Of a DNA stretch of 64,000 bases, positions 5,284 to 61,991 are shown piece by piece. The position numbers and the translations under genes are program-made. This DNA comes from Xiphias gladius (lineage: Eukaryota; Chordata; Actinopteri; Istiophoriformes; Xiphiidae). The notes under the pieces were generated by a model. It was not told where the DNA came from and made no database searches. It saw only the letters and a list, made by a program, of their open reading frames with translations. Every line of letters begins with the position of its first letter. Position 1 is the first letter of the stretch. The stretch covers positions 12,905,213 to 12,969,212 of the forward strand of contig NC_053408.1 in the NCBI RefSeq assembly GCF_016859285.1, given 5' to 3'.

Positions 5284-7316
5284 TCAAAGGGCAACGTCGC
5301 CGAGGTGCTCAGAGTAGTGAGGCGACGGTCCTGCAAAGCAAAGGCGCCGGGTGTGAGCAAACAGAACACTGCTGGACTATGTGCGGAGCTGCTATCGTGT
5401 CATCAAATGGATCAGTGTGTTGGGAGAGGTGTGAAACCTTACTGAAAGAGGGACCCAGTTAGCTCATCAACTAGGCCACCTGAAAAAACAAAAACAAGCA
5501 ATACATACAAAAATGAAGACTTGCCAAACAAACAGACAACGGGACATGCGCGGTACGCCTAAGTACTGCCAATATTTACCTGGTGTGCAAATTGTGTCAC
5601 AGAGTATGGGGCAAATGTAGCAGGATGAGCAACCCTGGAAGACAAGGAGGATTAACACGGGGAGGCTCTTGTCACAATGAAAATGCCGGGGCTTGTATTT
5701 GGACAGAGAAGGTGCTTACTTGGCAATGCTGACAGTGATCTGACTCGTCTCCCTCCTCACATGGGCAATTGTCACAGTTATTAGAGCAGTGCTAACAGGA
5801 GAAACAGACACACAATGGGCTTTTTGTTTTTATTGACTCATGCACTACCAATGTGATTTAGTGCAAAGTTGACTGGATAAGAGGGGTGCGCCATTAAAGT
5901 CTTGTACTAGCACCGCATCATTTTACCTCACAGATGGAGCAAACACTACACAAAGAGCCAGAGCGGAATTGCAGACCGTCAGTGTCGGCCTCCTCTTCAC
6001 TTGTGTCGTCAGATTCATGCTCATCTATGTAAAGTCAGCAGAGTCAAAGAGAAATTAGTCTTATGCATCAGCCAGTGTCATCTTATTGCAGATGTAACGT
6101 ATCAGTGTGTGAATATATCGGCCGATAAGTAAAAGAAAACTGCAGTACAAAAATGCCAAACTCGCCTCTTGGAGAAGACCAAACTATCCTCCCCACCACA
6201 GATGAATAATAACCCAATATTGCGAGCTGGTTTTGTGCAGATGTATCACACAATGGCTGCATTGTAGAGGATAAAGAGGAGATGAACACAAACACCACTT
6301 GCGACATATAAACTGTTACCGTCGGAACCAGTGGTCAACAAGTGTTTTTCTGAACTTGCACAGTTTCACGGTACCTGTTTTGTCCCAAAATAGCCACATT
6401 GGCTCAACAAAAGGCATGAATGGTTTAGATCCTACCGGGTGCCAGCTACTGCACAGATAAGCCAGTCTATTTTAGGACTGATATGTGTGACAGTGTTCCT
6501 ACAGTAGCTGCAGCTAGAGAGCTAAGATTCGCTTAAAGGGCCCAAGAAAAATAACAGTTTGTCATGTTTTATACCAAATTACTGCATAGTTTCATTTTAT
6601 TTTCATAAACCATCAATACATTGAAAATATATTTAAAAACTCAATACGTTAAAAAAAGTTGACATACCGTCATCTTCCTCTGATCCAGCTGCATCCTCTT
6701 CCTCAGAGTCATCCTCAGCATTATCATCCTCATCCTCCTCTTCCTCAGCTTCATCAGCTGCCTCTCCTGCAGCTACCTCCTCTTCCTCTTCCTCCTCGCT
6801 TTCAGCTGCGGCCTCCGCATCCTCATCAGCATCCTCGTCGTCTTCCTCCTCCTCCTCCTCATCTTCCTCTGCTTCTGCCTCATCAGCTTCCTCTTCTTCG
6901 GCATCATCCTCCTCTTCCTCTTCTTCCTCCTCCTCCTCATCAGCCTCTTCCTCTCCATCTTCCTCAGCCTCCTCTTCTTCTTCATCCTCCTCAGCAGCCT
7001 CCTCCTCCTCCACAGCTTCTTCCTCCTCCTCTTCCTCCCCACCTTCCTCCTCCACCTCATGTTCATCAGTCTCATCCTCCTCATCTGATTCTTCTTCACC
7101 CTCCTCTTCTGCTACCTGTTCCTCTTCCTCGCCAGCGGCATCTTCATCCTCAGTAGTTTTGCCCTCTTCTGCCACGACCTCCTCATCGTTTCTGGCATGG
7201 AGGTCTGCCTCTGCTTCAGCCACGTCCTGGGCACTAACTGCCCCAGAAAGCGGTACCTGGGATGGGCATAGAAGCACCAGCAGGAGCCCCACTACCCAGC
7301 CTTTCACAGGTGCCAT
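5284..7316 (-). CDS. hrc: sarcoplasmic reticulum histidine-rich Ca-binding protein (HRC)
   Basis: HRC is a luminal sarcoplasmic reticulum protein that buffers calcium and contacts triadin and the SERCA pump. Five exons join in phase: 6668-7316, 5927-6024, 5720-5791, 5580-5634 and 5284-5330, giving about 306 residues (human HRC is about 700). The start at 7316 was preferred over an in-frame upstream ATG because MAPVKGWVVGLLLVLLC forms a clean signal peptide. Residues of about 30-215 are almost pure Glu/Asp with a few Ala, Ser and Gly. Exons 2-4 encode a cysteine-rich tail (CSVCSICEHCSNNCDNCPCE, then HCQHCQGCSSCYICPILCD, then TICTPG) that matches the C-terminal Cys-rich block of mammalian HRC closely. 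The histidine repeats that named the mammalian protein are absent. The last exon (ending YSEHLGDVAL) is supported only by phase and acceptor. trpm4 lies next upstream, as in mammals. Confidence 0.85.
6680..7170. repeat. GAG/GAA/GAT triplet-rich coding repeat in hrc
   Basis: About 490 bp of nearly pure (TCC/TTC/ATC)n on the plus strand encodes the Glu/Asp tract of hrc on the minus strand. Open frames in other phases here (for example a proline/leucine/histidine-rich frame at 6659-7156 on the plus strand) are by-products of the triplet composition. Confidence 0.85.
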
Positions 7317-9419
7317 CTTGGAAGACTGACACAGCTCCTCTAAGCTATAAAACCACACTGGAAGAATGTCGCTACCCTGTTTTTTTCCCACCAAAAACTG
7401 AAACAATCGATGGGTTTTCAACACTTAAAAACCATAAAATCCACAGAAAATGTATTAGAGCTGCAGATGATTCAGAGATATTATTCAGGTCTTTGCTCCA
7501 GGCTGCAGAGAGAAGGGAGAGGAGGGCCGTGTTCACAAGACTGACAGAGCAGTGTGTCAGCCTTGTGCTAAGAACACACTGGAAACACAACTGGGTGCTT
7601 GGTGTAGTTGTGTGGCTGCATGTGCATGAGTGACAGAGGCACATGTCTGGGAAAAATCCTCCCGATGCCCTTAACACAGTGTGTTGGAGAGGTGGGCGTG
7701 TACATATGGCAGTTGGGGGGTTTTTGGACTGCAGGAGGGTGGGGGGTGGGAGTTCAAAGAACATATGAAAATGAGAGGGAGAGGGAAGATTAATTGCTGA
7801 CATTAAATAATTCAAACTGAAGATTAAGTTTTCCTTTAATACATTCATTGTAGTCCCTGTGCTAAATTTGAGCCACTCTTTGTATACATTCATAGGTTCA
7901 TACATACTCATACTGAATATGTCCGAACTTGTATGTGTATGAATGTTCATGTCTTTTATTTATCGTTATTATTATTTTTTTTTATTAATTTATGTATTTT
8001 CCTCTAATTTCATGTAAGAGTGACACATGAAATTTTCCCATGTCGGTAGGTCCCCCAGCGTGGAAATGAGCCAACAAAAACTTGAGTATAAAGTTTTTTT
8101 AAGTAAAGTATGAAATAAAAAAATTGCAATATGAAGCAATGCAATGCTCCCTTAAATTACAGTTTATAAAACGGCCACACCCTTGAAGCAACACCTCTCA
8201 GACACATGCTCAATGAAGCAAAGGTAATATTTCCTTGCCAGTCCCAAAGCAGGGAACATGTCAGAATGATGCATGGAACGGATGGAAACAGAGACGATGG
8301 TAGTCCGCACATGTGCAGACATGGGCAGCTGACATTCCAAAGAAATTGTTTAAATTTGAACATTTTCCCTCCAGAGTTTTGATTAAGACAGGCAGAAAGG
8401 AGATTTAGATTCAGCAGCATTGCATGCGTTGTGTGAAATGAGGAGCATGTACATTACAATGACAGAGACACAGAGACATGGGGGGGTGATACGCACATGC
8501 TCACTTGCATGGGTACATACTTGCACATGAAACCGTCATGCAACAAGAGGGCAAGAAGGCCGAAAGTGATGACACCACCGCTCTCAGTGAGAGCTGCTGG
8601 CACGACTGACAGGTGGCCCAGCTGGCTATTTACAGTAAAGGCTCCTTCAATAGCCCTTCTCCACTATGTGACCTTCAATAGAGCTCTGGCAGACTGAAAC
8701 TAAGCACCTTTCACACTATCCTTATCTCCCCCTCTTTAAAGTATATCTAACTACCACGCTTCCATGTTTTAGTCCCACTCTTCCTTGCAGATTTTCTTAA
8801 ATTTACATCATTTGCTCCCATGTTTTGTTCAGGGTTTGGTTTCTTTGTGTAACTCTTACCTTACTTTGGCCTTGTTCACACACATTTCATCCCCATAAAG
8901 TCATTACACCATGCTTTATTACCCTCTGGCATCTTTTTTTTAATCCAGGGGTTGTTACTCTTGACACCATAGCTTTATTTATCATTTCTTTCCACGTCTG
9001 CAATGTTAAAAGAGAATCCTCATTATTTATCATTAAAGGGATAGTTCGACTTCGATTTTAAGATAAACACTTATTTGCTCTCTTGCCTAGACTTAGATGA
9101 GAAATCTATGGTAAATGTTTAGCTGGAGCCAACAGTCAGTTAGCTTAGCTTAGCTCTAAGACTGGAAACAGGGGAAAACAGCTAGCCTATCCTAAAGCTC
9201 ACTATTTAATATGTTATATCTCATGCTATGCTAGCTGTTGCCCTGTTTTTAGTCCCCGTGCTAAGCTAAGCTAACTCTCTGTTGGTTCATAAAAGTGGTA
9301 TTGATGCTTTCACCTAACTCTGGGCAAGGGGTGAACATGTGTATTTCCCCAAATAAACAAACTAGCGTTATTCCTGTAACAGGAACAGTAAGAATTCATT
9401 CATTATACTGTAAATACAA
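7317..9419. other. hrc upstream region to trpm4 3' end
   Basis: This is about 2.1 kb of noncoding DNA between the hrc start codon and the inferred poly(A) signal of trpm4. It should contain the hrc promoter, but I could not place a convincing minus-strand TATA box or transcription start. AT-rich DNA at 7940-8000 and a foldback repeat at 9034-9345 are the visible features. Confidence 0.5.
9034..9345. repeat. GCTTAGC-family foldback repeat (MITE-like)
   Basis: It starts AAAGGGATAGTTCGAC. The left arm TTAGCTTAGCTTAGCTCTAA with GGAAACAGGGG near 9130-9170 is answered by an inverted right arm, GTGCTAAGCTAAGCTAAC, near 9258-9275. The structure matches the more complete copy at 39428-39809; here the right terminus looks decayed. 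Confidence 0.6.
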
Positions 9420-9873: not shown

Positions 9874-12800
9874 TTACTGAACCCTAGCAAGTGAAAGCAG
9901 CACCGGGGCTAAATCAGGTGGAACTGGAAGAAGAAGGGAACACATCTGTTGAGAAGAAGACGTACAATAAGGTAAGTGAGGGGACAAGTTCAGTATGAAT
10001 GGCGTGAAGCAATCAGACTTGTGACATTCCAACATGCAGACTGTTTTTCAGTTGGGTGAGGATACATATATGTTTCTCTTTGGAAGTACCTACCTTTTAA
10101 TGTAGGTGGAGGCCGCGGAGGTTTGAACGTGCTGCCTTGTGCCAAAGTATCCACAATCCAGCTGAGAGCGTTTGAGCAATACTCCATCTGAAAAGAAGGA
10201 AAAAAAATTATCAAAAATTACTGTATATTAGAAAACGGTAATCACCACGTCTCTAATCTGCCCATTAAATATGAGGCCACCACAAGTAGCAGGTTAGTTT
10301 AGCTTAGCATGAAGGCTGGAACCAGAGGGAAAAACAGCCAGCCTTGCTACTCAAAAGGTCACAAATTAACATGTTCTATCCTGTTTTGCAGGCTGTCCTC
10401 ATGTGTAGACGATGTAGACTCATATTTACCGCACAGAAACGAGAGTGGTATCCATCTTCATCTAACTCTTTGCGAGAAAGTGAAAAATCTCAAACTATTC
10501 CTTTAAGAAATATGTATGATTTTCCATACCTTAAGACATTATCACAACACGATGTTCTAGTTGTCATGATGTAGATAGATAGATGGGCAACATTTTCTGT
10601 ATTTGACCATTATACAGAGTAGGTTTATTGAGCAAACATGATCTTTTATAACCACACATGTATAGAGAAGACACACATTTCTTTATTTATTACCTCATTC
10701 TCCAGAGCCCTCAGCCTGTGGTCAAAGTCTCTGGTTTCAGTCAAATGTTTAAGGACACCATCCACTCTATTAAAGGAAAAAAAAAAAAGGGGGGGGGGGG
10801 GTTCAACTCAGTATTGTGGAGCCAAAAAATAAGAATTTTGCTGCTAACATGTAGGAAGGTGTGCTTACTTGACAGACATCCGCTTGAGCCTCTCGGAGTC
10901 ACTGTTTTTCTGGATCTTTGTCTGAGCCGTCAGGAAGTCCTCCTTCTGAATGGTTTCCCATGTCATTAGCCTGTTAGCTGCTTTCCCTCTTAACTGCAAT
11001 ACTGATGGAAAAGGCAAATGTTTTCATCAGTATCATTCAACTCAGTCCCAATGATTCCTGAACCAAGCCACGGCTGAGCTGAAGGCAATGTGGAAGTAAA
11101 TAAGGGCTGTTACAGTAGATGCTGACATTACAGGAAAAAGGCAGCTTCAAATCAAAATATCACATTGTTAAAGGCCAACTAATAGACAATTGAGGCATTT
11201 AAAGTATGCAAACAGTTTTGGTTTCAATCCGCATTTAGTCTGTGTTAGGCAATAACTGTATTGCCTTAATTAATCACACTTATGACTCCTGTTCAAATAC
11301 TTGCCAAAATGGTGGATCTTGATCGAGGGCACCTTGCGGATGGTCCTCTTGATAAAGAGATTGAGGTGAGAGAGGATGATGAAAGGAGGTGCCAGGGAAG
11401 GACGGGAGTGGTACTGAACTATCAGGTTGTAGCGCTGGAACTTCCAGTAGATGTCGCTGTTTGCCTGCACTTCAGAGAAGGTGTAGCTGCGTGGACACAA
11501 ACGGAGTAAAGAGTGTTGTGTAGAGAATGGCATGTCAATGTAAGGACAGACACTGATTGACAGACACCACTCTCCTTGGACCTTACCTAAACATGGCGAT
11601 GAGCAGGTTGATGAGTAGGATGTTGGTGACCAGCAGGTAGACGACCAGCAGTATTACCACCAGCCAGTTACTATACAGAGTTCTGCACGGCTCTGCACCG
11701 TCCTGAATCAACGTCACGTTGTCTGTGCAGGCCATGTCCCATTCCTTCCCCACTGGGATAGACAGAAAAATGTAGAGAAGATTAAAATATTTCATGTATT
11801 TTCAGATCATTTTAGTGAATTCTAATTGCTGTGGAGATGCAGTGGTTGTGAAGAAACCTCTAATGCAAGCTGCAGAAAAATACAGTATCCGTACACTGGT
11901 TTGAAACCATAACAACATTTTTTTCCTCTCTTTGCACCATGCACACACAAACACTTATACCATCTATCTCCTCTACAGGGATCTGTCCAAAGATGTGCAA
12001 ATAAGGCCTGTAGAAAACCCGGCGGAAGATTCGATCTAGGCGAGGGTCGTAGGAATAAAGCAAAGCCTGGTTGGCTACTCCGTATGCCATGAGCCACACC
12101 CCCAGGAAGAAGAGGAAAAAGAAAACATCCTTCATCTGTACAGGAGAAATCAATTGCCTTGCTGTTGTTACCATGCCAATATCATACTTTATAATGTTGG
12201 TAAAATGTCAGTTTATGGGCATCTTTAGATATTTCTCACCATCTTGCCAACAATGATGATTTTCGGTCCCAGCTGTTTGTGAATGGCAAAGATGTGAATG
12301 AGGCGGAGGGTGAAGACCATGTAGTCCACACAGAGGACATCTCGGCCAAATCCATACGACCAGTGGAACATCCTAAAATACAAACAGAATGAAACAAATA
12401 AACTGTGGTAACAGCAGCACCCAGTGGCCAGCTTGTAAAATAACGGCACTACCAAAAGTTAGGGGTGTGTGCACACTTTGAATTTACAGGACTTAGGACA
12501 GGAATTTATGAGATGATTTGAGGGACATGGATACGCATCTCTGAAACATATTCATGTATTATTAAGTGGTTTTGACGGATTTGTGCCAAATACTGAAGAG
12601 TTTTCAGCCTCTTCATGCTCCGATAATTTGTGCAATCAACTCAAAAAACCAGGAACATAGAACTTCAGTAGACTGAACTTTGTATATTGTCGCCATGTTA
12701 TCATGTGCCTCAGGTGACAAAGCATAGCTTTGTTTTAAGCAGCCACAAGCCAAACCCACTGAAAAACAAGCTCCTTGAAACACACATTTTTGGCATAATC

Positions 12801-15800
12801 CAGTAACAATAATGATAATAATATACACGTTCTGTGTGCAATCATACCTGCAGATTAGTCCTATGATGAACAGCGTGATGGCAGTGAGGTCACACTTGTT
12901 CCATACATCCTGAATGTACACTCGGACCCGTTGACGCCAAGTCATCGTCCCCAAAAAGAAAGTCTTGGAGAAGAAAACACCAAAACTTAATAGATCAGTT
13001 TTACTTAAAACTTTGCTAGATATTGCAGAGTTGTTTCATCAGCACTGTATCTTATGTAAAGCACATACTGCATAAGCCCTTTGATGATACCTAGATAGAA
13101 ACAGGGTGAAATCCTTTAAGCATAACAGTTTACAAAATGTTTTTATGTATAGTTTTTGGTGTGTCCAAATACATAATAATTGCTTTTGTATTACTTCATT
13201 TAATTGTTCTGTTTGACAGATCAGGCACTCTGCTTTGGTTTCTGTCTGTACTTTAGGAATTACTAAAATAGTCAATTAGATGCGTTAAACATCAAGTATG
13301 ACATCAAGATATCTCTCTGCACTCACCTCCCGGATCTCCTCACACACAATGGTGAATACCCAGAAGTACAGCACATACTCAGTAATGGCCGGACCAGAAG
13401 GTGGAGGGGGCTTGAAGTCCACCAACAACACATAGGCAAAAAGCAGGAGGAAGAGGAAGTACATCAGGACGTTGCCCAAAAATGCGGTGACGGGAGCAAA
13501 CCAGAACTGGCGCCATCTTGACACTATAAATGGACGCTTTGGTGGTCTGCGAGTGAGGGGTATGCCTGTAAGGAAGGTCATCGGACATGGATTAGTAGTT
13601 GATCACTGTCACAGCTGCCTAAAATAATTATTTCCAGAATCAGTCTTTCCTCTCGTCTGTTGTGCGAGTGACAACACTTTTCCAGAGGTACTGCGTTTAA
13701 AGAGGACTCACCTTTGATGGTTGCTGTCCTGGGAGAGTTTGCGTCTTGTGCGTCAGCTTCACTGGTACAACAACAACACAATTTTAATGAATCGGCACAC
13801 TACAGCAAGTACAAAGCAGTGGGTCCTGTTTAAAACCTGCAAAACCTGTGCACCTCATTCACTTGCATTAACATGATAAAAAAGAAAAAAAACGTAGTAA
13901 AAAGCAGAATCTTGCCACTTGACAAAACTGATGCTTTATAGAATACCACTGATTAATGTGTATAGGAGTATTACATGTGCTTGATGTCAGAGAAAGAGAA
14001 GACGGTGGTGCCATAGAGGCTGTCGTTGTCTCGGCCCGGACCGTCCTCGTTAGGCTTCCCCTCCTCCTCGTGCTGCTGGTCCTCTTGTTTCCTGTGATTT
14101 GGAGTATGTTACAAAATTTTCAACATACATAAAACAGAGATACCACTACCCGTACACAAAGTGTGAATTTGTGTTGGAAATCAAATTAAGGACAGCTCTG
14201 GAATCTCAATCTTCTGGATGCGAATAACAAAGAAGTTATAATAACCGGGTTGTCAAAAAAAACAACAATTATTGTGGAATATGTGGATTTTACCTGAAGG
14301 AGATTAAGTTGGTGTAGCAGAGGATGGGGCAGAAGAAGGTGAGCATGAGCTTCCACACCTCCGTGTTCCTCTTCATGTCACCCCACCAGATCTGGGACAA
14401 CAGAGACTGGAGGAAGAGAGACCACTTATGTTATCTGAAACTATGGTAACACTGTAACTCAGCTTCTCTTCAGAAGTTATGGCAGATTTTAATATGAGGG
14501 CGGGCAGTGGGTATGATTTATTTGATTCTCTACAAAGATGCAAATTGAATTAAGTTTGGCATACACACATCAACAACGTACAGTTCTGAACATTTAAAAC
14601 AGACTAAGCATGAATAGAACTGCTTGAACTGCCACGATCAAGCAGTGACTTGGTTGTCTTTCAGTTACACGTGTGAAAAACGGCGACACACCTGTACTCC
14701 GTCATTACTGAAGAAAAGTCGTGCGTCAGCGCTCATGCCCATCTGGAGGCAGGTTGTACCACTCCAAACCGGAGACTTCCTAATCAGCAGGGTGAACGAG
14801 CGACTCTCATTGCTCCGATAGCAAGAGCTGAAGATGTCTGAGAAGTGGGAAAAACGTGCAGACAGAGTTTGGTTAGATGGTTACCATTTAGAAACCATAA
14901 CTGAAAGTGACTTAAAAAAAAAAAAAGAAGAAAAAAAAGACACTAGCATGAAAGTGAAGCTTATTCTGAAAATCAATTAGTAATCATACATTGGTCATAC
15001 ACGCATCACTTCCCTTGATGCAAAATTTAAACCTCTAAAATATCTACGCATTACCATTAGCAAAATAAAGACTTTAATAAAAAGCAAAGAGCTAAATCAC
15101 TCATGTTGCATTATTTACTGATATGGAGTGGCCAAGTAACACTGAGTAGAACTATGAGGATGTGAAATTTAATGTGCATATTTTTCTTCATTTGTTCTTG
15201 TTTAAAGGAACATTAGTGAATGACACATTCACGGTCCTACCATGTGCCAGGTTCTCGAAATTCTGGGCCAGCTCTTTCAGGGAGAGTTTGGTCTCAGTCT
15301 CAATCTCCAGCTTGGACAGTTCTCTCAGGATCTTACAGGCGCTCAGAGCACTCAGCACTGACTCCCCTGCCTGGGAGAAACAGTGAGGGATATCAGAGAA
15401 ACTCCCTTTTAAAAAGGCACAGATATGATCTATGGTATTTTGTAATTAAGGCAGATGGAGAGGACGGTCATAAATAATTTTCAATCTGTCAGTTAGTTGG
15501 TTGCTAAGAGCGTCTTAGCACCACCCAGTCAGCAGAGGGTTGTCAGTTATGAGCTCTTTTCATACAAAATGAACATCATCAGGGCAAATGTGCGCTTTCT
15601 GCGAGTTGCAGAAGTTTTACCATCTCCCAGAAGAAAGTGGCCATCTTGCTGCGGTTCTGCAGGACGGCCCAGATGAAGAGCGAGGCCCAGGGGAAAAGGC
15701 AGCGTCTCTCCCGATACAAGCAGTCTCCGCGCAGCAGCTTACTGGCACGCTGGGATGAAGGAAGAATAATTAACCAAGGGGGTATTCCGGTTGAAGGTGA

Positions 15801-18800
15801 GAAAGCAACAGTGACGGTTGGCATGTCATTCACTCTTCTCTTCCAAAACCGTACAACAATAGTTTATTAGCTCTGATATCAACTTAGTGGCCACTTTATT
15901 ATTAGGTGCACAGCTCAGCCAAAAAATCTATGTTTACAAATAATAATGTTTAGTTTTTGTTGACACTGTCAGAAAAGTTGCTAATTCAACTGTAAGTTCA
16001 TCATTACAAAGGTGATAGCTAGTGGTGGTGTTGAACTGGACGGCATTATATTGAAGAGCGTTTCCATTTATATACACCAGGGGGACAGAATATTAGAATA
16101 ACTCGTCTCTGACAGTGTGAAACAAAAACTGAGCATTATTAGCTTTTTAAAGGTAGATTTTATGGCTGAGTTGCTGTATCGGATTCGATTAGATTTTTTA
16201 GGTGTAACTAATAAAGTGGCCATTGACTGTATGTCTACATATGCATAGGTTCTGGTTACCCTAAGAGCCCTCCTCTTGGATGTAATCTCTTCTAAGTCCA
16301 AAGCGTCATAGTAGAATGGCTGGCAAACATCACCCATTAACAGTTCCAGGACCCTTGACACCTGAGGAAAAAGGGTGTAGAGCAGCAAACACAACTGTGA
16401 GAGTGAATACAACTTTTTCTTACATCATTTCTACATTTGATTTCAGCAAAAATACAAGCATTTAAAAAAAACAAAAGCACCTCAAAAAGGCTAATCTCCT
16501 TCACTGGCCCGCTCTGTATCTTCTCTGCTGCCACTTTGGAAGGAGAGTCGTTCTGGTTAGACAGTGTAGTTCCAAGCCGCTCCATGAGGTGGCGCTGTAG
16601 CAGCTGGTAAAGGAGTGTCCCATCAGCCACCGAGCGGTAGAGGCTTTCCAACCTGCCATAAGTCAGGTAGTCCAGGATGTTGAGGCCATTCTCGGTGAAT
16701 AGACGCACAAACTGAGGCTTATCATTGATCAGGGCGTCTGTCATTGAGTCTTCCAAGTCTTCATACTATTAGATTGGATGAAGGTGATTGTTTAATAAGC
16801 AGGTTTCAGTACAAGGTCAATACTTCAAGGTTCATACTTCAAGAAGATATTTTCACTTATTTTATATCAACGATGCCTAGCAGTACTTAATTTGATACAA
16901 TACACTACACTACTAATGCCTCTGCTTTAGAGTGGTGGTATTTCTCTGAATGTAACGTCTGGATCTGATGTGTTATCTTTTTTCCTCTCACCCTCCAGTG
17001 GATGTCTCCATTGAAGAGTTCGCTCTTGGCAATGTCGACCCTGTTCCATGTGACCGCTAGCTTCAGCTCTTCATTGTAAGGGCTGGCATCGGCTGACACA
17101 CGGTGCTTACTAGCTGAAAAGCGCACAAACATCAAAATAAAGACACGTTGCCATGTAACACATTCGAAATCTTCTTAATATGAATTAGTTGTGTGTACCT
17201 CCCACTAAAGCTTTGAGCAGGACTGTATCAAATTCATTTGGGCCCTCCTGCTCTCCATGGTAGATCGTGATCAAATCTCTGTTCTGGTAGATACTAAGAG
17301 CCTGGAGACCCAGAATAAGAGCCAGAAAAAAAAAAATTAAATTTTGAATAAATGAGCACAATACTTGTGATGACGGGTTGTTAGCAAACCCATGACACCA
17401 CAAAGTGCGTGGACTTCCCATGCTGAATGAGTAAGACATCAGACATTTAAAGATTTCATTAGGACATTTGAACCTAAGGACCAATGATACTAATTAGAAA
17501 GGAATAAGATTAACATAAGAGTGTGACACTAATCATTTCCTAGTTCAACACATAGCCAAAGACAAGACAATTGGATTTTATGCAATGATTACATTACTTT
17601 TTCAATAAAGATTAGGACACTGATGAGTCAATAAACACGTCTCTGAGGCAGCATGTGAAAATGGTGTTAGATAAACAACACATCTTTGTAGAGCTGATGG
17701 GCTCAGTGGCAGTAAAAACAGTGACATTTGCTCCTGAATGGACCCCTCTTTTCATAACAGAGACATCACAGGATTGAAAACACAGCTTCAACTAATAAAG
17801 TTAATAATATATATTCTAGATTTAGTTAAGCTGATGCAAGAATTAAAAAGAGTCAATAATCCCGTCAATGCCTGCTGATTATCAACTGCCATTTAAAACA
17901 GAGAGCTCAATGAGGATACTGAGCAAAGGCCCTCGCTGCTTTTTACATGCATTGCATTCTGGAAATTTCCAGAAGTCAGAGTTCTAGTGCACTAGAGGGG
18001 TTTTGACTACACGTGTCATCGCACAAAGTGCGACTGAATGTTGTTGGCTATATACACTATACAGCCACTTCATTTCCAGACTTTTGCAATACAAAAATAA
18101 CCCTATAATGCCACATCAAAACTGAAAGTGACTTCCAAACAACAGCTTGTGAGTGAGTTAAATGTGGGAGGGTAAGAACAAATGAATAACAGCCAGCAGT
18201 TTCAGGCGTCTGGGATGGACTGAAACCTGAAGTTTTAGAAAGAGCCGTAAGTCTACAGGGCAAAATGCTGATAATGTAGCTGGCTTCAGCTAATGGAATC
18301 TTTACCTTGTGGCATTTAATTTAAAAAAAAAAAACAGATGAAGGGATCAGCAAGAACATTTGCAAACCTCCGAGACCATGAATATCACTGTAAAAATTTT
18401 GTGTAAACCGAGCCAGTAGTTGTCCACAACAAAACACACCAGCTGCTGAATACACAAGGATAAAGAAATCCCTCGGGCCTTCCTCTTCTTGTTCCGCATG
18501 TCAGTAACTACATGATGATAATGATGCACGGCTCTGTCCACAGCTCTTACTCGTTCAACTAGTTTATCCGTCTCCGCTTCAGAAGAGAAGTACTTTTTAA
18601 CCCGTTCTGCCACTCTGTCTTTCAGATCTACACTGGGACCCGCCTCGCCATCGACCTCGCTGGAAGACTGTACCACCTGGGTTGACGACAGGTTCTCCAA
18701 GACGTCACTCAGGAAGTCAGCTATGCCTCCCGAGCCAGCCAGCACCAGCCAGGGCATGGAGTTTTTCAGAGAAAGATCCACTCTCTGGTAGATATTAGGA

Positions 18801-30716: not shown

Positions 30717-33700
30717 ATGGACGTGAATGTGGAGGGGATTATCCAGTGCATCAAGCAGGGGGATGAGAACGGTGTTCAGACACAGCTGCAGGAGTTCAAC
30801 AAAGAGGTAACGCCACACAAAAGCTCACAAATTCTTATGTCTGGACGATACACTGCTGTTTGTAACAGTTGCAGACCATTGTTGTCATCATTTCTCTCCC
30901 CACAGTATGCTCAGTGCTTCTTCTTTGATGCAGAGGAGAGGGACCGAAGGAAAGTAAGTCGGCTTATGTTGCTGCACCCGTTAACTGAGAGAAAATATAC
31001 CCTCCCGTCCCTGTCCTCCCAGTGTTCCTTAAACCTCACCTTTTGTTACTCCCTCACCCCACTCCTCCATGTCATCCACCCCTCCCTAACCCCACTCTAC
31101 AGTCTGTCTGTGATTAGTAATTCTGCTGTATCAGTTGTATCCCTGATCCTCTCTCCTTGCATGCTTAGGCAGATTGAGCCCAGGCAGAGCGATTGAATAA
31201 CCATGCCATATATACTGCATGTTAATCTATTCAACACGTTCAGCTCTATCATTTGCAGTCAGCTGCTGCAGGTAATGTGCTTCATTGTGCTGGTGTTTTG
31301 GAAAAATACAAAAATAATAAAGTCTCGCAATCTATGTATCTATTTTCATTAAATTAAATTCATTTAAAATTTTTATTTGATTTAATTGAAATTATTTTAT
31401 TATAATTTTTAATGTAATTCATATTTTAATTTGATTTATTTCAATTATTTGTATTTTTATTTAAAATAATCAAATGGAATAATTTGATTTGATTTCATAT
31501 TTAATTTAAAAATAAGTAACTGAACTAGATTTTTAATTAATTTTATTTAACATTAATTTGAAATTTGTATATTTTTTATTTATTTTTTTATTTTTTTATT
31601 TTCTACATTTTGTAATCTTATCTTATCCAATCAAGCTCTTTTCACACTTAGACATATTGATGGCTATTTTATTTCACATTCAGTGACACAGACCGCTCAG
31701 CTGTCAACCAGTCACTGTAGACATAGTGAGTAAATTAATGCAGAAGCTTAGGAGTTCTCTCAGTCCCTCAGTAAAAGTAGCTCTCAGCCGATTTGTGAAT
31801 AGCTCTTAAGAGGAATCACTTGATAGGGACTTTTAGGAGGATTCCTAGTGGTAAGACACGTTGCGAATATGGCCCCTGATTCAGAGCTGTGCTGTTTATC
31901 TCTGCCTTACGAATATGTACTGATATTATTTTCTCTCCGTTCTGCTGCATTGCTCACTGAAATCGGACCGTCCACCTCCTAAAGCAAAGAAAACTAGAAG
32001 AGGTACAGTGCTGCCTGCTTAGGAATAATGTTCAAGTATTGCTTTTGGATGCACCTTGAGAGCACGCTAAACTAATTCATAAACTGTAATAAAGTGTGAA
32101 ACATTTGATCTTATTTATTCTATGCACTGCTGCACCAGTTCAGGAAGAATAAAGTGAGGGAGTACACTGATTCTGACTCCGACTGTGATGAGTACGACCA
32201 GGAGGATCGAGGCCTCGTCCTCAGACGGGTAACTGACACTTTCCCTTTCTGCTTTCCCAGAGGTGTTGTCAGTTGTTCCTTTGAAGAATGCTGTTTAACT
32301 AGAGGTCTACTTCTCTGTTCCTGTCCTCAGAATTTAGCTGTTGTCCTTGTGAGGTTTATAAGAACAGGAGTTAAATGTCGTCTGTTAAGAGTATCTCTGC
32401 GCACCCTGAGGATCCTTTCCAGGGACAAAAAGGTCCTGGGCCCCTTGGTGACTGACAGCGCTCTGGTGACACTGGCCAAACTAGCCGGGCTGACCACAAG
32501 AGATGACAGCGATGAAGCCAGTGACCCTGACTCTGATTTCTATGATAACATCATTGCTTCTCTCGCTGAGGCCAAGGTTTTGCAGTGCCATGCTGATGAG
32601 GATGAAGGTGACGCAGAAGCCAGTAAGCAAAATGAAGAGTGCTCTGCCTTTGATGAAGAAACCGAGAGTGACATCAGCAATGCCAACAGCGGAGATCTGG
32701 ACAGCATCAGCTGGTTTGGGAGCCACAGGACCAGCATCAACGAAATGCACAGAGGCGGCATCCATCACAAGGTGCTGGAGCGAGGGAGGAGGGACCGCAG
32801 AGAGAGCAAGATGGAGGGAGAGGAGGAGGAGGAGGACGGGGAGTCAGGAGAGGAGGCAAAGAGAAAAGAGGCCATGAAGGTGTTGTGTAATGTGGTATAC
32901 AACAGCACTTGGGCACAGGAGAGGTTCAGCGCTCTCAGGTGAGCTTACTCACAGGACGCAGGACAAACACACAGACACACAAAACTATCCAGTCCAAAAT
33001 ACTGTTAAACACAGGTGTTGGCTTTGCATTTCTGGTTTGCTGTTTGTGCAGCAGGCAACATTAAGTGTCTTATAGCTGCAATACAGTTAAGTAGCAGAAA
33101 ATAATTTTAATCAAGCCCTGTTATTCATCTGTGGTAAACACCAAACTTTGATGTCAACCCCTGTGAATCGGAGAAAACACTTCTTTGTAAGCTCAGTACC
33201 AGCTTTCTACAGTCACAAAGGGAGAAACTCATTGTAGAAAAAAAGCAGTGACTTGTCCCAGTGTTCACAAACTATCTGGCAACCTGGCTAATTGAATACA
33301 CGTGCATCCACACGTGATTCGAAAGCGACGAGTACATGCCCATTCTCTGAGGGCTGTTGAAGGTCATTATGAGAAATGCAAATCCCAAACCGAGATGGAG
33401 ATTGACAGTGCAGACTGAGACAAATGTGTGCATAGCTAACCTCAGAGACAATGTTATTCTCATTTGTCATAACCTTCATTTGGCTTTTGTGCAAATCAAC
33501 ATATTTCCGAACAGCTAACCTCTCATTTTTTCCCATCAGGCTCATGTGTGGTCTCATAGAGCGCCTGTCCTCCAGTGTCAGCTGCTCATCGTCCTCCAGT
33601 GTTCAGTTCTATGAACTACGCCTCATGTTCCTCATTACTGCACTACGGCCAGAGCTCAGCACTCAGCTTCAACAGGTAGCATAACCACACCTACTACAAA

Positions 33701-36700
33701 GTTACTGTATTAAATATGCAGTCCAATATATATTGTGGTTGTCAGAATATGCGGTAGATCATTCTGATGTAACAATTCCCTGAGCTCCTTTTATTTATCA
33801 CGCCACTGTCAAGTTTATTCTGATATTCTTCTGAACGGACCAAGATTCTTCTACTTGGCCTCCTTTCCGCTCTCACCCTCATTATTATACTCTTCCAGGA
33901 GGGCGGGGTGTCCATCCTCACAGCAGCCCTGGAGAGCTGCCTGGAGGTTCAGTGGAAGGACCAGTATGAGTGTGTGCTGGACCCAGCAGCTCCACCAATC
34001 TCCCTGGAAGCCTCTCAGCGTATCATAGAGATACTGAAAATCCTCTTTAACATCACCTATAGCACCCACAGGCAGGAGCCAAGTGAGGTCAGTGAATATG
34101 AGGGGTATAATAAACCTGTCGGCCTTCAGGTGTATTAGAGATAGCTAAGAGGAAAGTCTACACAAAGTTGGAACATCTCACATATTAGAAACTTATTTTG
34201 TTTATTGTTTGTCATTGATCTTAAATTGTTTGGCCTAAACAATACAGCTGAGATAACATTGTTATCAGTCACATCTGCCACCTATCCTCAACCTCTCCCC
34301 TCCTTCAGGATGATGCAGCTCTTTACCGACACCTGGTGGCAAGCCTGCGTCCCTGCCTGCTGAGGAAGTGCGCGCTGTCGGACGACACCGATGAACTGCA
34401 GGGGTGAGCATGAACCAAAGTGAAGCTGGACAGAAAGAAATTTGCAGTGACAATCATCATTAATAACAATGATGCAGGTGCATTAAAAGTGGCTGGTGTG
34501 ATACCAGCACACCCCTTTATATAAATTCATCCATTTTTTCTCATTCTATATCTCAGTTGAACTTTATTTCAGTTCAAATGAACTGATCACAGCTTTACTA
34601 TTAGTATTTGTTAGTATTTTTACCACTTACTGTAGTTTTTTGTTTACCAGTATATAATGACCCATCATGCCAAACTGAACCAAGTACTTTGTCTCTGTGC
34701 TGTTTACCGTGTCTTACTCTCTGTTCCTGTAATCGCCTCTCAATGCCACAGTCACACAGTCAACCTGTTGTCAGCGCTGCCTCTCCAGTGTCTCGATGTG
34801 CTGCTGATGGTGCCTCTAGAGCCCCACTCGGAGCAGTGCCAGGGGGTCAACATGGACTGTGTACACACCCTGCTGACGTTCATGGAGAGACGCCTGGAGT
34901 TGGTAGGGGCAAAAGTAGTATGGAGAGAAGGGCTGAGATGTTTGGAGCAACCCTTTCAAATTCATTTGTGGTTTTTGAAGAGTTTGCTCCTAAAAAAGCT
35001 GACATTTTTGAGCTTTGAAGATAGGCCATTTGCTAATACTGAAATAACCTGAGGCCGTCGTCCTTGTTTGTTTGATTCTCAGGGTGATAAGATCAAAGAG
35101 AAACTGACACCAATCCTCAATCTGCTGACAGAGAGCTGCAGGGCCCACAGAGAAACACGCTGCTACATCAGGAAACATGTAATAACCCCCCTGAAAACAT
35201 TACTCCTTCAAGAAAGCTTATTTCACATTTTGCCTCTCACAATATTTTGATTAAATTTGAAGCCAGTATTTTTTAAAATACTATAGACAACTGAAATTAT
35301 AATTTATCCCCATCATTAGATCCTGCCTCCTCTGACAGATGTGTCACACAGGCCGGAGGAAGGCTCCACAGTGAAGAGTCGCCTGATCCGTCTCATGACT
35401 CATCTGGATACGGATGTCAAACACTGTGCTGCTGACCTCATCTTTGTCCTCTGCAAGGAAAATGGTGATGCCAAACATTATCACTCTTTCTGGATTAATG
35501 GCGAGAGATTAAATTACAAAATCTAGTCATAAAAATAAAACACTTTATGTTGAGATTATCAGATGAGATCAAGACAGCAGATATTCTTGGCTTTTTTTGT
35601 GATCTGATTTAAAAAAAAAATAAGGATACTGATGCAAGAATCAAGACAATTTTACTACTCTAAACCTCAGCATTGTTTTTTTATATTGTTATCATCCCCT
35701 TAAATGTCCTTTAAAATAACTTGAAAGATTTGCCTCTTGTTAAGCGAAATCACACATAAATGTTATATCTACAATTTGCGGCAGTTCACTGAATCTATGC
35801 AATATTTTTTTAAAACATTCATACCTAAATGGCTGCCATTAAAAAGGAATATAAATATTCTTGTTTATGATTTTCTGTACATTTCTGGAAATTCAGCCGT
35901 ATTCAGAAACTTTGGGCACTTTACTAGAGTTTGAAAAATAAATTTTAGTGGTTTTGAGCAATGCTTGTCTGCAAAGCATTCATTTGTAATCAGTGACCAG
36001 CTTGTGTGAGTGTAGTGTTGAAAATGTTGATTAGCTTTTCTATTTTTCAGCCCTTCTTTCCTGTATATAGCTTACACACCTAAATAAGAAATAACATGAA
36101 AATTAAATGATTTTCATCAACATTCATTTTTGTTTATCCAATACTTTGACTCCACCATCATCCCCTATCCCCCTCACTTCTTCTTCCAGTGAGGCGTTTT
36201 GTCAAGTACACAGGTTATGGTAACGCAGCGGGCTTGCTGGCAACCAGGGGTTTGCTGGGCGGCCATGGGTCCAGGACCTCCAGCTCTGACGCCCAGTACT
36301 CCAGCGACTCTGACTCTGACACTGAGGAGTACCGGCAGGTCAAAGATCGCATCAACCCGGTGACGGGGCGGGTGGAGGCAGAGCAGTCAGACCCCATGGA
36401 GGGCATGACAGAGGAGGAGAAGGAGGAGGAGGCCAAGAGGCTGATCATGCTCTTTAACAAGCTGTCTAGGTCAGTGAAATGACCATGACTTGTAGAGACA
36501 CGATATCAAAATTCTTTGGCTACTGGTATTAAAGTTGAGTCTTTAACCTGTGACAAAACAAATCCCGCTCAATTGGTCTGAAAATGAATTGGTATTGACT
36601 CTCAGCACTTTAAAACCAGAAACATTAGTTTTGCCCAAAACTTTTTACTTCCAAACTTCATTTAAATAAAGCAGGGTTAAGGTATTTAATTACCTGTTGC

Positions 36701-37248
36701 TGAAAATATTACATAAGAAAGAGGCAGCAGTATCTGTTACATCTCATTTATCAAAGTATTATAACACCTAAAAGACTACTATAGGACTTCATTCTTTATT
36801 GCACATACATTATATATCCTATTCATTTATTTCATTTATGGAAGCTTTTTTGATAGAGGTGACACTATCAGAAAGAAATATATTTTTTTTTACCCAGATT
36901 TGTATAAATCTTAACAATGGCAAAAGGTCGAAATAATAATAAAATCAAATAAAATTCCAAGAATAAGAACCAAAAGATAAAGGAACCTCTTCGCCAAGTG
37001 TCCAGTGAAGACTGAGCGTAAGCAAAGAATAAATGAGTACAACAAGGACTATGTTAGTACTGATGATTAAATTGTTGATTTTTTTAACACCTCGTTTGTT
37101 TTGCAGAGAAAACATTATCCAGCCGGTGGGAGTGGATTCAGAGGGGAGGCTGGTCCCAATGTTCGGACTAAGTGAAACTGCTCTCACTGAGGAGGGGGGG
37201 TCTGAATCGGAGAATGACGGAGAAGCAGAGGAAGGAGAGAAGAACTGA
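30717..37248 (+). CDS. Ric-8/synembryn family G-alpha chaperone and GEF
   Basis: Ric-8 proteins fold nascent G-alpha subunits and act as non-receptor exchange factors in the cytosol. Thirteen exons join in phase: 30717-30806, 30906-30953, 31985-32002, 32139-32228, 32331-32938, 33540-33675, 33899-34087, 34309-34403, 34752-34902, 35083-35178, 35320-35464, 36190-36469, 37107-37248; 695 residues, against about 530 for human RIC8A. Family marks: [68 protein letters not shown], and a C-terminal [11 protein letters not shown] that matches the CK2-phosphorylated segment of RIC8A. The C-terminus ([18 protein letters not shown]) is RIC8A-like, while some central segments ([15 protein letters not shown]) look closer to RIC8B. 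Exons 3 and 4 and residues of about 137-260 (exon 5) are extra and strongly acidic. Exon 3 (18 nt) is the least certain. I give no symbol because RIC8A ortholog versus separate ohnologue is unresolved. Confidence 0.9.
31330..31615. repeat. AT-rich low-complexity tract
   Basis: Nearly 290 bp of TTTAATT/AATTAAA-type sequence lies in intron 2 of the Ric-8 gene. No coding or RNA feature is seen. Confidence 0.8.
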
Positions 37249-38257: not shown

Positions 38258-41200
38258 TCAGCACATCTCCATCATCTCATCGAGGGACATCTGCAGCTCT
38301 ACAGACTGCAGGGAGGAGGCACCGCCTCCGACAGCCAAATTCTTCAGCAACTCCATTGAAGTCAGCACCACCTGAGAAAAAAAAAAAAAAACAGAACAGA
38401 AATCAGTTGCCATGGCAAGAATGACAAGAGCGAGACGTCAAATTTGAAGCTTGACACGAGCCATAAAAGTTGAGAAAGCTTGAGCAATGGGACGCGTCAA
38501 GCTGGTTTCTTATACTTTTTGTATAAGCTTTTGGTTTCTCAGCATGTGCTCCTCTGTAGAGGTTCCGGGGCAGAAAATGCTTTTCCACCTGAGGGATCAG
38601 CTGTCACCACCGGTATTCAGGCTTTGTTCCCTCTGTGCTGTTAAACAATACTGGGACAAATTTGCCTCTTGAAAAATGCTGCTGACTACAGCTCCCTTGC
38701 GTGGGCAATTTTGGGGGTTTGAACACTCATGAAATTTGATAGTTGTATGTGCAGCAAAAAAAAGAATACTGAAATACTGCTTTAAGGTCTGTGAGAGCAC
38801 AATACTGAGCGTTTTAATAATTGAAGAGTTCTCTCACCTCCACTGTGACGAGTTTCTTCTCCCAAGGCCTGTCGTCTGGCCACTTCTCTCCGAGGCAGAA
38901 GAACAGGGAGCAGGGAGGGCAGGCCCTCCCCTCAGTGAAGTCCTTTATTCCTGGAGGGATTGGAAAAATCAATCACTATGTCAAGCCAACATGTAAAGTA
39001 CTGCACATTAATACGCTAACAAAAAGCTACATCATTTTTCCTTTCACCCACCTTGCAAAAAGTCCCTGAACATGTAAAGTGGTTCAGGCTGCAGTTTAGA
39101 AACCTCTTGGGGCTGTATGCTACGATCAAACTTAGAGAAGCTCCAAAATGCTTTGATTTCACCCCGTCGCTGGCCGTAGACCACGTGGCCTGACACCCCT
39201 ACGTCCAGACCATCGCCCAGCTTGTCCAGGATGCGTTGGGTCAGTTTGGCTTGAGTTTGATCCAGCATGGCTCCAGGACTTGGCAGAAAGACCAAGGACA
39301 GGCCTGATTCGTAGTCCAAAACTGTCCCGATGAGTTCAGGGCTGATGTAAAAACAATATTTATTCATTTGATTGTTGAGATTAACTGAATAGCAGGTTGT
39401 ATGACTGGCAGTGCCCTGAGAACATTAAAGGAATAGTTTGACATTCTGGGAAATATGCTTTTTCGCTTTGATGCCACATGTTAGATGAGAAGATTGATAC
39501 TACTCTCATATCTGTACAGTAAATATGAAGCTACAGGCAGGACGTGGCATTAGCTTAGCTTAGCATAAAGACTGGAAACAGGGGGAAACAACTAGCCTGG
39601 TCCTTTTCAAACTTCCGTTTTTAGACACATTAAACAAACGAGATAAAACATGTTAATAACTGAGCTTTAGTGCTTCCAGTCTTCATGCTAAGCTAAGATA
39701 ATTGGCTGCTGGCTTTAGCTACATATTTACCATACAAGTATGAGAGTGGCTTCAATCTTCTCATTTGTCACTCTCAGCAAGACATTTCCCAAAATATCCA
39801 ACTATCCCTCTAACTATGACAGTCAATCTGAAGCTAAATTGGGGCTATTCAACATTTGCCAGACCTGTTTCCTTTGATGAAAACTTTATTTTGATGTTAC
39901 CTGTAGACCAAGCGGACCCCAGCTTCATTCTCAACCAGCTGCTCGGACACCTTCACCCCTCTGTAGTACACTGATATCCTGAACTGAGTCTCTAAGGTGT
40001 CAGAAAGAGGAGAAGTGTGTGAGAAACGGTGTTTCACAGCTCCACTCTTTACTGTATTTCTGTTTTTAAAAAAATGCAACACCAGGCAAAAATGTGAAAC
40101 CACACCAGGCTATGTGGTTTTTAAATGATGTTCTGAAAGATATTCCTTTTTAATATTTTAGGAGGATATGTTTGAATGACTGCGTAAATTCCACATCTCA
40201 TTTCTACAGTACCATCCCTCAACTTACTGAAATTATTTCTATCGCTGGTTTTGTTCATGGTACTTAGGAACTTCTCCGCCAGCTGCCCACCACAGGCCCC
40301 TCCCACAGCTCCCCCCATTGGATGCGCTGGTTGCTCAGGCAACCCAGTTTCACCGCCTGCACTCTCAAACGTTACTGGATACTGCTGTTGCCCAGGCAAC
40401 GCGTATCCACCAATCACAACCGGATTCTGCAGCTGCTGTTGCTCAGGAGGTGGCTCAAAGCCTGTGGTGCCCTCTGTGGAAAAGTTGGAGAAAATAAATA
40501 ACTGTTCCTAAGAAAGTACCTCGGTTACTCTTTGTTTTCTGCTCATGCTGCAGCATTGAGGAGGAAATGATCAGCAGAGCTGATAAGTCTACCTGTTTCA
40601 GGGCCAATGTGCAGTTCCTTTAGACACTCTTGGAGAATATCTTGGTTGACAGTGGATTCTACTTCAGAAATATTCAGACAGTGATTGCACATTTCTAAAT
40701 ATAATTTAATGACCATTTATAATACCCTGAAGTAAATTTCCCCTCTAAGATACACAATTGATGCCAGGCGAAAAATAAATAGTACGAGAGTGGCTCCGTT
40801 ACCTGAAAATAAAGTTTCTTCTGGAAGGTAGAGACAGTCATCAAAGCATGAGACAACCTGGCTCTAAGATATCACAGATACACATCTGAATGAGTTCACA
40901 TGTAGTTAGATAATTACACAGCATTCACGTAGCACTTACATTTCACTTCCCGTGTTCCCACAAGTCAACCCCACAAACACAGCCACTTACTTCTTGTGTA
41001 GGAAGGCCACAATCCTCAAATATATCGGGGTCCTCTTGGTCCTGGGATCCAGCAGAGGAGTTAGCTTTGAGAGTGAAAGCAAAGAACTCTGCTTACTATC
41101 TTTTCATTATTCATTCTCCTCAGAAACACCTCTTTAATCTCATGATCCCATTTATTAATGCTCTGCATTTGTGTTTTACCTCGACAAATCTCAACCAGAG

Positions 41201-42297
41201 AAACATAAACGCAGACAGAAATGAGGTGATCAGATGTGTACTGTATCTCAAATTCAAACATAACCCACATGAGAGCAGAAATTAGCAGCGTTAGTAGGTG
41301 GTGAACTTACTGCATTACCCGATTTTTGTATTTATCCAATTTGCAACGCACAACAATGTAGTAATATGAAGAATCAACTGATGCCTTGTTAATTGTATTA
41401 TGTACGTTAATAAAAACGTGCATCAAAGCAGCACGACCGCTCTTCCTGGGATTATAGTTAAGATACACAAGCTGAATAATTTTGCATGAATAAACCTGCA
41501 AGAGAAATGGAAATGTGTTTTTGGATTTTGCATGGGAGAAAGCAATCTTTTTTGTATTATATCTATGCATTTTTAATGCCTGTTGCCTCTGAATGCATGT
41601 CACATAAACATTTAATTCAGTTATTTTGTTAGTAGGTCATTTTAGCACAGTGCGTCAGAGGAAAGATTCCTTGTTTAACTTGCCTGTTATCCACTACAAT
41701 AAAGGACAAAATGATGATTGTCTATGGATGCCTTGGTGGATCCTCACCTCCTGATGCCGAATCGTCCGGCCAGTGGAACACTTTATGGGGGTTAGCGGCA
41801 TCGTTCTTGTTGTCATCAACCATTTTGAAGCCTTTGGCTCGGAGGGCGCTGCGGAAGTTCCTCTTCCAGACTGAGGGGTCTCCCTGAGCCCGGCCATTGC
41901 CGCTCACCTCTGCCCAGGCCTACAGGGAAGAAAGAGGTTGAAGACAGGAGGAATTACACTATGCGAACAGACAAAGGTTGAATACATGATGGACTCTCAC
42001 TGTTGCTGCATATCATGCCATAAATAGAAGGGATACGTTCTGTCAAATTCATGTATAGGATTACTTTCTATCAGTCTGCCACTGATGTCTTTTTATGTTA
42101 TGATATTCATGATGGCTCCGCATGAGCGCTACCTTAAAGATGAGAACGTCAGTGCTGGAGGAGTCCTGTCTTAAAGCGTGTTTCCATGGGATGGAGAACT
42201 CTGTTCGTTCCGCGTTTGTCCACTGGACACCAGGATACCGGCCACTGTCAATCTGGGTCCGCAGCCACGGGATGAGCAGGGGTTTAAAATGAGACAT
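38258..42297 (-). CDS. irf3: interferon regulatory factor 3
   Basis: IRF3 is held in the cytosol until TBK1 phosphorylates it downstream of nucleic-acid sensors; it then dimerises and drives type I interferon genes. Ten coding exons join in phase: 42133-42297, 41748-41919, 40991-41064, 40803-40863, 40593-40661, 40228-40473, 39901-39991, 39052-39341, 38838-38950, 38258-38371; 464 residues. The first two exons are the DNA-binding domain with the tryptophan series W11, W26, W38, W57, W73, and the IRF3-like KMVDDNKNDAANPHKVF. Residues of about 115-262 are a Pro/Gln/Gly-rich linker. Residues of about 262-426 are the IRF association domain (FRISVYYRGVKVSEQLVEN; FWSFSKFDRS; FFCLGEKWPDDRPWEKK). The tail has a short serine cluster ending SLDEMMEMC. 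IRF3 rather than IRF7 follows from the DNA-binding domain and from prr12 next door. The ATG lies three bases inside its exon, so an upstream noncoding exon is needed. Confidence 0.93.
39428..39809. repeat. GCTTAGC-family foldback repeat, near-complete
   Basis: The termini are AAGGAATAGTTTGACATTCT (with GGGAAATATGC) and the inverted ATTTCCCAAAATATCCAACT (with ATCCCT). Inside, TTAGCTTAGCTTAGCATAAA and CATGCTAAGCTAAG form second inverted arms. It has no coding capacity. It sits in the irf3 intron between the exons at 39901-39991 and 39052-39341 and is the best reference copy of this family in the window. Confidence 0.75.

Positions 42298-47097: not shown

Positions 47098-61991
<14,894 letters not shown>

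Follow-up and report, generated by a model that had tools for sequence, protein, structure and literature searches.

Ric-8 proteins are chaperones needed by Gα subunits, and two of them, RIC8A (synembryn-A) and RIC8B (synembryn-B), are recognised in vertebrates. The 64,000-nucleotide stretch of the Xiphias gladius genome analysed here (C9:12905213-12969212, hereafter the window; the genome comprises 690.8 Mb in 1298 contigs) contains a new member of this family, which is neither RIC8A nor RIC8B by orthology. An earlier note on this DNA had proposed that the gene may be an ohnologue of RIC8A, lost in mammals, in a block of the type found at human 19q13.33, a proposal now supported by a separate ric8a on contig C8, a partner copy on C3 and neighbouring Pax6-type genes. 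On the human map, RIC8A, IRF7, PAX6, QSER1 and TRPM5 lie on 11p, and IRF3, PRR12 and TRPM4 at 19q13.33.

A block of this kind has been described around Pax6.2. Acanthopterygian Pax6.2b has Mapk7, Prss22 and Mmp25 as neighbours, and Trpm4, Irf3 and Prr12 belong to the same locus, two copies of which are derived from the teleost genome duplication (3R; PMC3554528). The model of that paper traces Pax6.1, Pax6.2 and Pax6.3 to the first and second rounds of vertebrate genome duplication (1R/2R), Pax6.2 not having been found in birds or mammals; coelacanth and painted turtle were added to the species with Pax6.2 (PMC3759438), and the 2R origin has been restated (PMC6925180). The legends to Figures 6 and S4 in PMC3554528 contain the names 'Ric8a' and 'Ca4', and section 12 of that paper is silent on Ric8a. 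No open-licence paper devoted to a third Ric-8 of fish was found by title or by the start of the abstract.

A third Ric-8 gene

The gene lies on the plus strand of the window, where the earlier note had placed it, and runs from an ATG at 30717 to a stop codon ending at 37248; its 12 exons encode 689 amino acids and all 11 introns are of the GT-AG type. The Pfam Ric8 profile PF10165 matches it five times, always above the cut-off (best E-value 6.9e-35), and among PDB chains the protein matches Ric-8A (6vu8; E-value 3.5e-122, 412 bits) and Ric-8B (8el7; 1e-106, 361 bits). The chain 6vu8 is rat Ric-8A, and the PDB Ric-8 chains found are mammalian.

Searched across the X. gladius genome, PF10165 gave 14 matches at four loci only, namely five in the window gene, four each at about 1.39 Mb and 13.80 Mb of C8, and one at about 5.79 Mb of C3. 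Exon-by-exon models were built for the window gene and both C8 genes, and the C3 copy was traced by spliced search. The first C8 gene (C8:1383888-1402298; 14 exons, 587 amino acids) is ric8a, scoring 618 bits to 6vu8 versus 466 to Ric-8B, and the second (C8:13802778-13813438; 10 exons, 540 amino acids) is ric8b, with 614 bits to Ric-8B versus 506 to 6vu8. Fish ric8a is identical to rat RIC8A at 303/521 positions (58%) and fish ric8b to mammalian RIC8B at 298/501 (59.5%). Compared with A-type and B-type proteins alike, the window protein shows 41-46% identity (rat RIC8A 233/520, or 44.8%; mammalian RIC8B 208/504; fish ric8a 261/573; fish ric8b 236/538). The best fish match to mammalian RIC8A is the gene at about 1.39 Mb of C8, with 618 bits to 6vu8 versus 412 for the window gene. 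The outcome that the earlier note had named as fatal to its proposal, a sole RIC8A-type gene that is the plain orthologue of mammalian RIC8A, did not occur, because C8:1383888-1402298 is of RIC8A type and the better orthologue. X. gladius carries ric8a, ric8b and a separate third intact Ric-8 gene. One scan of viral contigs with exon 11 as the only query (26 stretches fitting the pattern) and one scan of prokaryote genome contigs with ric8b (96 stretches) contained no relatives.

Exon 1 of the window gene (30717..30806) carries the start codon and ends at a GT donor, and exon 2 (30906..30953, 48 nucleotides) has the same length and phase as in ric8a and ric8b. Exon 3 (32139..32228) is an acidic in-frame cassette of 30 amino acids, absent from the ric8a and ric8b models and from the PDB chains, with a homologue at C3:5766909-5766998. 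Exon 4 (32331..32938) encodes armadillo (ARM) repeats together with an acidic insert of roughly 110 amino acids and has a long counterpart on C3. The unique insertions reported in the earlier note are these two, and both have diverged counterparts in the C3 copy. The gene model continues with exons 5 (33540..33675), 6 (33899..34087), 7 (34309..34403), 8 (34752..34902), 9 (35083..35178) and 10 (35320..35464). Exon 11 (36190..36469) encodes the GYGNAAGL helix, an acidic connector with a casein kinase 2 site, a reverse turn and the switch-II helix in one uninterrupted stretch, which is split by an intron in ric8a and ric8b; exon 12 (37107..37248) ends with the stop codon.

All three fish Ric-8 proteins contain acidic-rich inserts in one common loop (about rat residue 106-115), encoded at 32480-32875 of the window, C8:1391996-1392345 (ric8a) and C8:13803656-13803724 (ric8b), which suggests that this loop tolerates or favours acidic inserts.

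Phylogenetic placement and intron positions

The Ric-8 alignment retained 509 columns once those had been dropped in which two or more rows, C3 not counted, showed a gap or X. Trees were built from six sequences and then, with the C3 copy added, from seven, a small sample without an outgroup; approximately unbiased (AU) tests used one model for the six-sequence tree and three for the seven-sequence tree. The C3 copy groups with the window gene (100/100), and all four models over both trees reject placing the window lineage with either of the B-type proteins, fish ric8b and mammalian RIC8B (AU < 1e-4). Three placements around the A-type proteins lie at most 2.4 log-likelihood (lnL) units apart and none is rejected; the position outside all RIC8A has AU values of 0.69 with six sequences and 0.46-0.52 with seven. 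The branch of the window gene is long. At the 28 sites where rat and fish RIC8A agree and differ from both RIC8B proteins, the window protein has the A-state 14 times, the B-state three times and neither 11 times. Over 467 columns, it agrees with fish but not mammalian RIC8A at 38 and with mammalian but not fish RIC8A at 32, counts that speak neither for nor against a fish-only origin. The trees point to an old gene on the A side, whose split from ric8a they leave undated.

The earlier note had also described a mosaic of RIC8A-like and RIC8B-like segments. The C-terminus is indeed RIC8A-like, since over rat residues 452-491 the window protein matches rat RIC8A at 26/39 positions, mammalian RIC8B at 18/39 and fish ric8b at 22/39. 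The supposed RIC8B-like character of the centre proved weak (residues 190-240: 19/50 for rat RIC8A, 20/57 for fish ric8a, 21/56 for mammalian RIC8B and 23/54 for fish ric8b).

Eight intron positions are common to all three fish Ric-8 genes, and a ninth, shared by ric8a and ric8b, is absent in the window gene. The window gene has three private introns, one of which creates the cassette exon at the old intron 2 site, and ric8a has four; no mid-gene intron is common to the two. This pattern favours copies made at the DNA level that have long evolved apart, rather than a retrocopy. Across the mid-gene stretch compared (C8:1391837-1393664 in ric8a, 32331-34087 of the window and C8:13803491-13804120 in ric8b), fish ric8a has four introns, the window gene two different ones and ric8b none, which amounts to strong intron turnover within one short stretch of the Ric-8 family.

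The broken sister copy on C3

The Ric-8 relative on C3 spans about 5764.6-5789.4 kb. Exons 1-8 of the window gene, some of them only in part, and exons 11-12 are represented in it, exons 9-10 not being found by the spliced search. The relative is disrupted by an in-frame stop and by frame breaks close to its end; besides these breaks, it has other letters at R75, L418 and L482 (rat numbering). Its identity to the window protein is 268/520, compared with 33-43% to the remaining five sequences. The long exon 4 is kept, and so is the 90-nucleotide cassette exon, the peptide pair being FRNNQVRDYAPDSESDIDSDDDEPDLLLRQ and a partner of 30 amino acids. Between the two diverged cassettes, the proportion of differing sites is 0.73 for silent (pS) versus 0.25 for amino-acid-changing positions (pN), so the cassette has long been maintained as protein. 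Silent change between the window gene and the C3 copy is saturated in four of the six exons compared and reaches 0.8-1.0 in the other two. In the C3 copy, the sequences corresponding to exons 11 and 12 adjoin directly (about 5789.2 kb), and the last intron seems to have been lost precisely.

Open frames of the window were compared with 110 kb around the C3 match and with 110 kb around ric8a. Among the best 36 matches listed for C3, that block contains second prr12 exons (5738305-5747686), two matches at 5752634-5759850 and then the Ric-8 relative. From its motif, one of the two matches is presumably bcl2l12. Since the broken copy in the sister block shares both the extra exon 3 and the long exon 4, the window Ric-8 lineage is older than the duplication behind the C9 and C3 blocks. 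A block-level duplication at such silent distances fits the teleost one. A sequence at about 42.9-44.1 kb of the window also repeats on C3 (5735.4-5736.4 and 5813.0-5814.0 kb, among the matches listed); judged from a motif, it may be a Tc1-type transposon remnant.

Neighbouring genes

A Pax6 homeodomain sequence was used as query, and 150 of the 248 candidates were scored. It gave 139 matches, six of which, at three loci, reach at least 90% identity (Pax6-type), the other 133 having at most 65%. The Pax6-type genes lie at C9:12870246-12870551, 65 kb from the window Ric-8 gene, at C8:1683303-1684530, 0.28 Mb from ric8a, and at C1:16314598-16314872, 0.1 Mb from a qser1-type gene. Each A-type Ric-8 locus thus has a Pax6-type gene within 0.3 Mb, and these genes mark the window block as paralogous to that of RIC8A. 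Simple arithmetic for three such loci in 691 Mb puts the chance of such proximity in the order of 1/1700 for the window gene and 1/400 for ric8a.

The 3' neighbour of the Ric-8 gene, convergent with it, is a partly modelled irf3 (38823..41919, minus strand; PF10401), whose DNA-binding exon scores 38.5 bits to IRF3 versus 23.2 to IRF7. It is followed on the minus strand by a bcl2l12-like exon (47101..47271), which has a copy on C3, and by the prr12 exons (48881..59050), which are copied on C3 between 5738305 and 5747686. A protein query (11 matches) located prr12 on C9 and C3; it also matched a more divergent relative at 16.415 Mb of C1, which we read as qser1. A genome search with the PRR12/QSER1 profile PF13926 gave no match. 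The naming of PRR12 versus QSER1 follows the earlier note and PMC3554528. A PF10401 search yielded 17 IRF matches, of which the window gene and a locus at 12.13 Mb of C8 were examined further. Bit scores of the latter are 65 (IRF7/IRF3 fusion chain), 36.4 (IRF3) and 35.4 (IRF7), which place it only to the IRF3/7 group; it is probably irf7, because irf3 is already present in the window.

The window further contains a TRPM4/5-type gene (11863-16765, minus strand), three exons of which were set against TRPM5 and TRPM4 by bit score. A carbonic anhydrase exon (354-851, minus strand; PF00194) has CA6 and CA7 as PDB matches, though it would agree with the name Ca4 in the PMC3554528 legends. An open frame at 6636-7424 (minus strand) begins like a signal peptide, continues with a long Glu/Asp-rich stretch and lacks a Pfam match. 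Possibly it is hrc, which in human lies next to TRPM4. A genome search for Tcp11 gave 16 matches at three loci (C2, C8 and C21), at which individual genes were not told apart. As to the block genes listed in the earlier note, irf3 is confirmed and prr12 is supported by its C3 copy and C1 relative, but the trpm4 label is doubtful, TRPM5 being the better match in all three exons.

Origin of the window gene

The window gene, for which we use the name ric8c, is quite probably a third vertebrate Ric-8, the partner of ric8a in a 19q13.33-type block from 1R/2R, kept in the ray-finned line, doubled at the teleost duplication and absent from mammals. Pax6-type genes beside both A-type loci, taken together with the 1R/2R model of PMC3554528, make the block fit a 1R/2R duplicate of ric8a. 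The 1R/2R doublings would have left the partner of ric8a in the 19q13.33-type block, and the ray-finned line would have retained it and doubled it again at the teleost duplication, after which the C9 copy stayed intact and the C3 copy decayed; mammals would have lost the gene. Three points of this history are inferred: the identity of the C9/C3 doubling with that of teleosts, a 1R/2R date for the separation from ric8a, and the loss by mammals. The gene would be present outside X. gladius, and a loss in mammals is suggested by the parallel with Pax6.2 and by the human gene set, which is not known to include a third Ric-8 gene.

Several results weigh against a 1R/2R origin. The tree with RIC8A and RIC8B that the earlier note had suggested sets the gene outside RIC8B, but in these trees without an outgroup a position outside all RIC8A is not separated from one as sister of fish ric8a (AU 0.41 with six sequences and 0.60-0.66 with seven; lnL difference 0 to 1.1), and a position with mammalian RIC8A has AU values of 0.10 and 0.12-0.17, respectively. 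The 110 kb around ric8a share only Ric-8 pieces with the open frames of the window at an E-value of 1e-4 (12 rows, the complete comparison). The IRF3/7-type gene of C8, with its group-level placement, lies 10.7 Mb from ric8a, and ric8b is on C8 as well, so that a common contig means little and the IRF link is weak. Finally, the window TRPM exons score 99.8, 94.1 and 61.4 bits to TRPM5 against 84.8, 79.4 and 33.4 to TRPM4; mammalian TRPM4 may have changed fast, or the window gene may not be trpm4 but perhaps another ohnologue.

The same AU values, from a comparison covering one fish genome, would also suit a later origin in the stem of ray-finned fishes, in which a ric8a copy was inserted into the 19q-type block between 2R and the block doubling; the gene would then be a fish-only paralogue never present in mammals. 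We consider this unlikely: the eight common introns point to a DNA-level copy, no mid-gene intron is common to the window gene and fish ric8a, and a random insertion would have had to hit the vicinity of irf3, prr12 and a Pax6-type gene, genes with relatives on C8 (with ric8a) and on C1. A 3R origin as the fast-evolving member of a ric8a pair would accord with the long branch and the unsettled placement around the A-type proteins, but it is very improbable, as the window gene has its own partner on C3, where the whole block is duplicated and the cassette exon is shared, and one doubling would have to yield a third ric8a copy. Hardly any credence is left for the simpler alternative weighed in the earlier note, that the window gene is fish ric8a itself, moved into the block or ancestrally part of it. 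The A-side placement in trees and diagnostic sites would suit it, as would the name 'Ric8a' in the figure legends of PMC3554528, but for this genome it is refuted by the ric8a of C8, the better RIC8A orthologue (58% versus 45% identity to rat RIC8A, 618 versus 412 bits).

Predicted function

Nineteen residues of rat Ric-8A involved in Gα contact, exchange and the phospho-connector were taken from PMC7044438 and PMC6625990, and the rat letters agree with the printed papers at 19/19, which confirms the residue numbering. The window protein is identical to rat at 16 of them (R71, R75, N123, F162, F169, A173, H273, R345, L383, Y412, A415, A416, L418, S435, E478 and L482). Two changes are conservative (F163Y and T440S, the latter leaving a residue that casein kinase 2 might still phosphorylate) and one, K349C, is not; the GYGNAAGL helix is identical, and the acidic connector retains S435. 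Because 16 of 19 published residues are identical, the window protein is likely to work on Gα much as Ric-8A does, as a chaperone and exchange factor. As judged from the kept residues, it would hold the Gα C-terminal helix in its ARM-repeat groove as RIC8A does, set the GYGNAAGL helix against the Gα sheet and brace switch II with its last helix, the result being Gα folding or nucleotide recharge.

K349 holds the phosphorylated connector in rat Ric-8A (PMC7044438, PMC6625990), and K349A lowers basal and phosphorylation-stimulated exchange (PMC7044438). Against a fully working protein, K349C may therefore also mean a weaker or differently controlled one. The residue changes and the extra acidic exon and loop suggest altered regulation, and different control by casein kinase 2 would be a guess from sequence. 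Rather doubtfully, we can picture an ancestral set of three or more Ric-8 chaperones in jawed vertebrates. The third would persist in fish as an active Gα chaperone with a rewired phospho-clamp, having lost the K349 contact and gained new acidic segments of casein-kinase type in its N-terminal half (exon 3 and the loop of exon 4), and it would serve a Gα class or a tissue for which mammals rely on RIC8A.

Comparison with known systems

The event itself would be evolutionarily ordinary, a genome-doubling duplicate retained in one line and lost in another. If the reading as ric8c is true, the gene alters the interpretation of ric8 mutants in fish models, in which a spare gene, possibly labelled ric8a, would be present; it also provides a natural variant for probing which parts of the casein-kinase clamp matter, and an extra gene pair for the paralogous blocks beside Pax6 and Pax6.2.

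RIC8A is the nearest family member, with the A-state at 14 of 28 diagnostic sites versus three for the B-state and 16 residues as in rat. The window gene differs from it in its 44.8% identity to rat, the 30-amino-acid exon 3, the loop of about 110 amino acids, the fused exon 11, the mid-gene introns, and F163Y, K349C and T440S. RIC8B belongs to the same family, and fish ric8b has eight introns placed as in the window gene, but identity is 41-44% and placement within the B-type proteins is rejected. The 'Ric8a' of the PMC3554528 legends is listed with Trpm4, Irf3, Prr12, Ca4, Mapk7, Prss22 and Mmp25, the genes that make up this block in acanthopterygians, and is therefore probably the orthologue of the window gene. 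Pax6.2 (Pax10), from the same block, is read as having the same history, a 1R/2R duplicate kept in fish and lost in birds and mammals (PMC3554528, PMC3759438); it differs in encoding an unrelated protein and in having been published from shark, frog, lizard and coelacanth (PMC3554528, PMC3759438).

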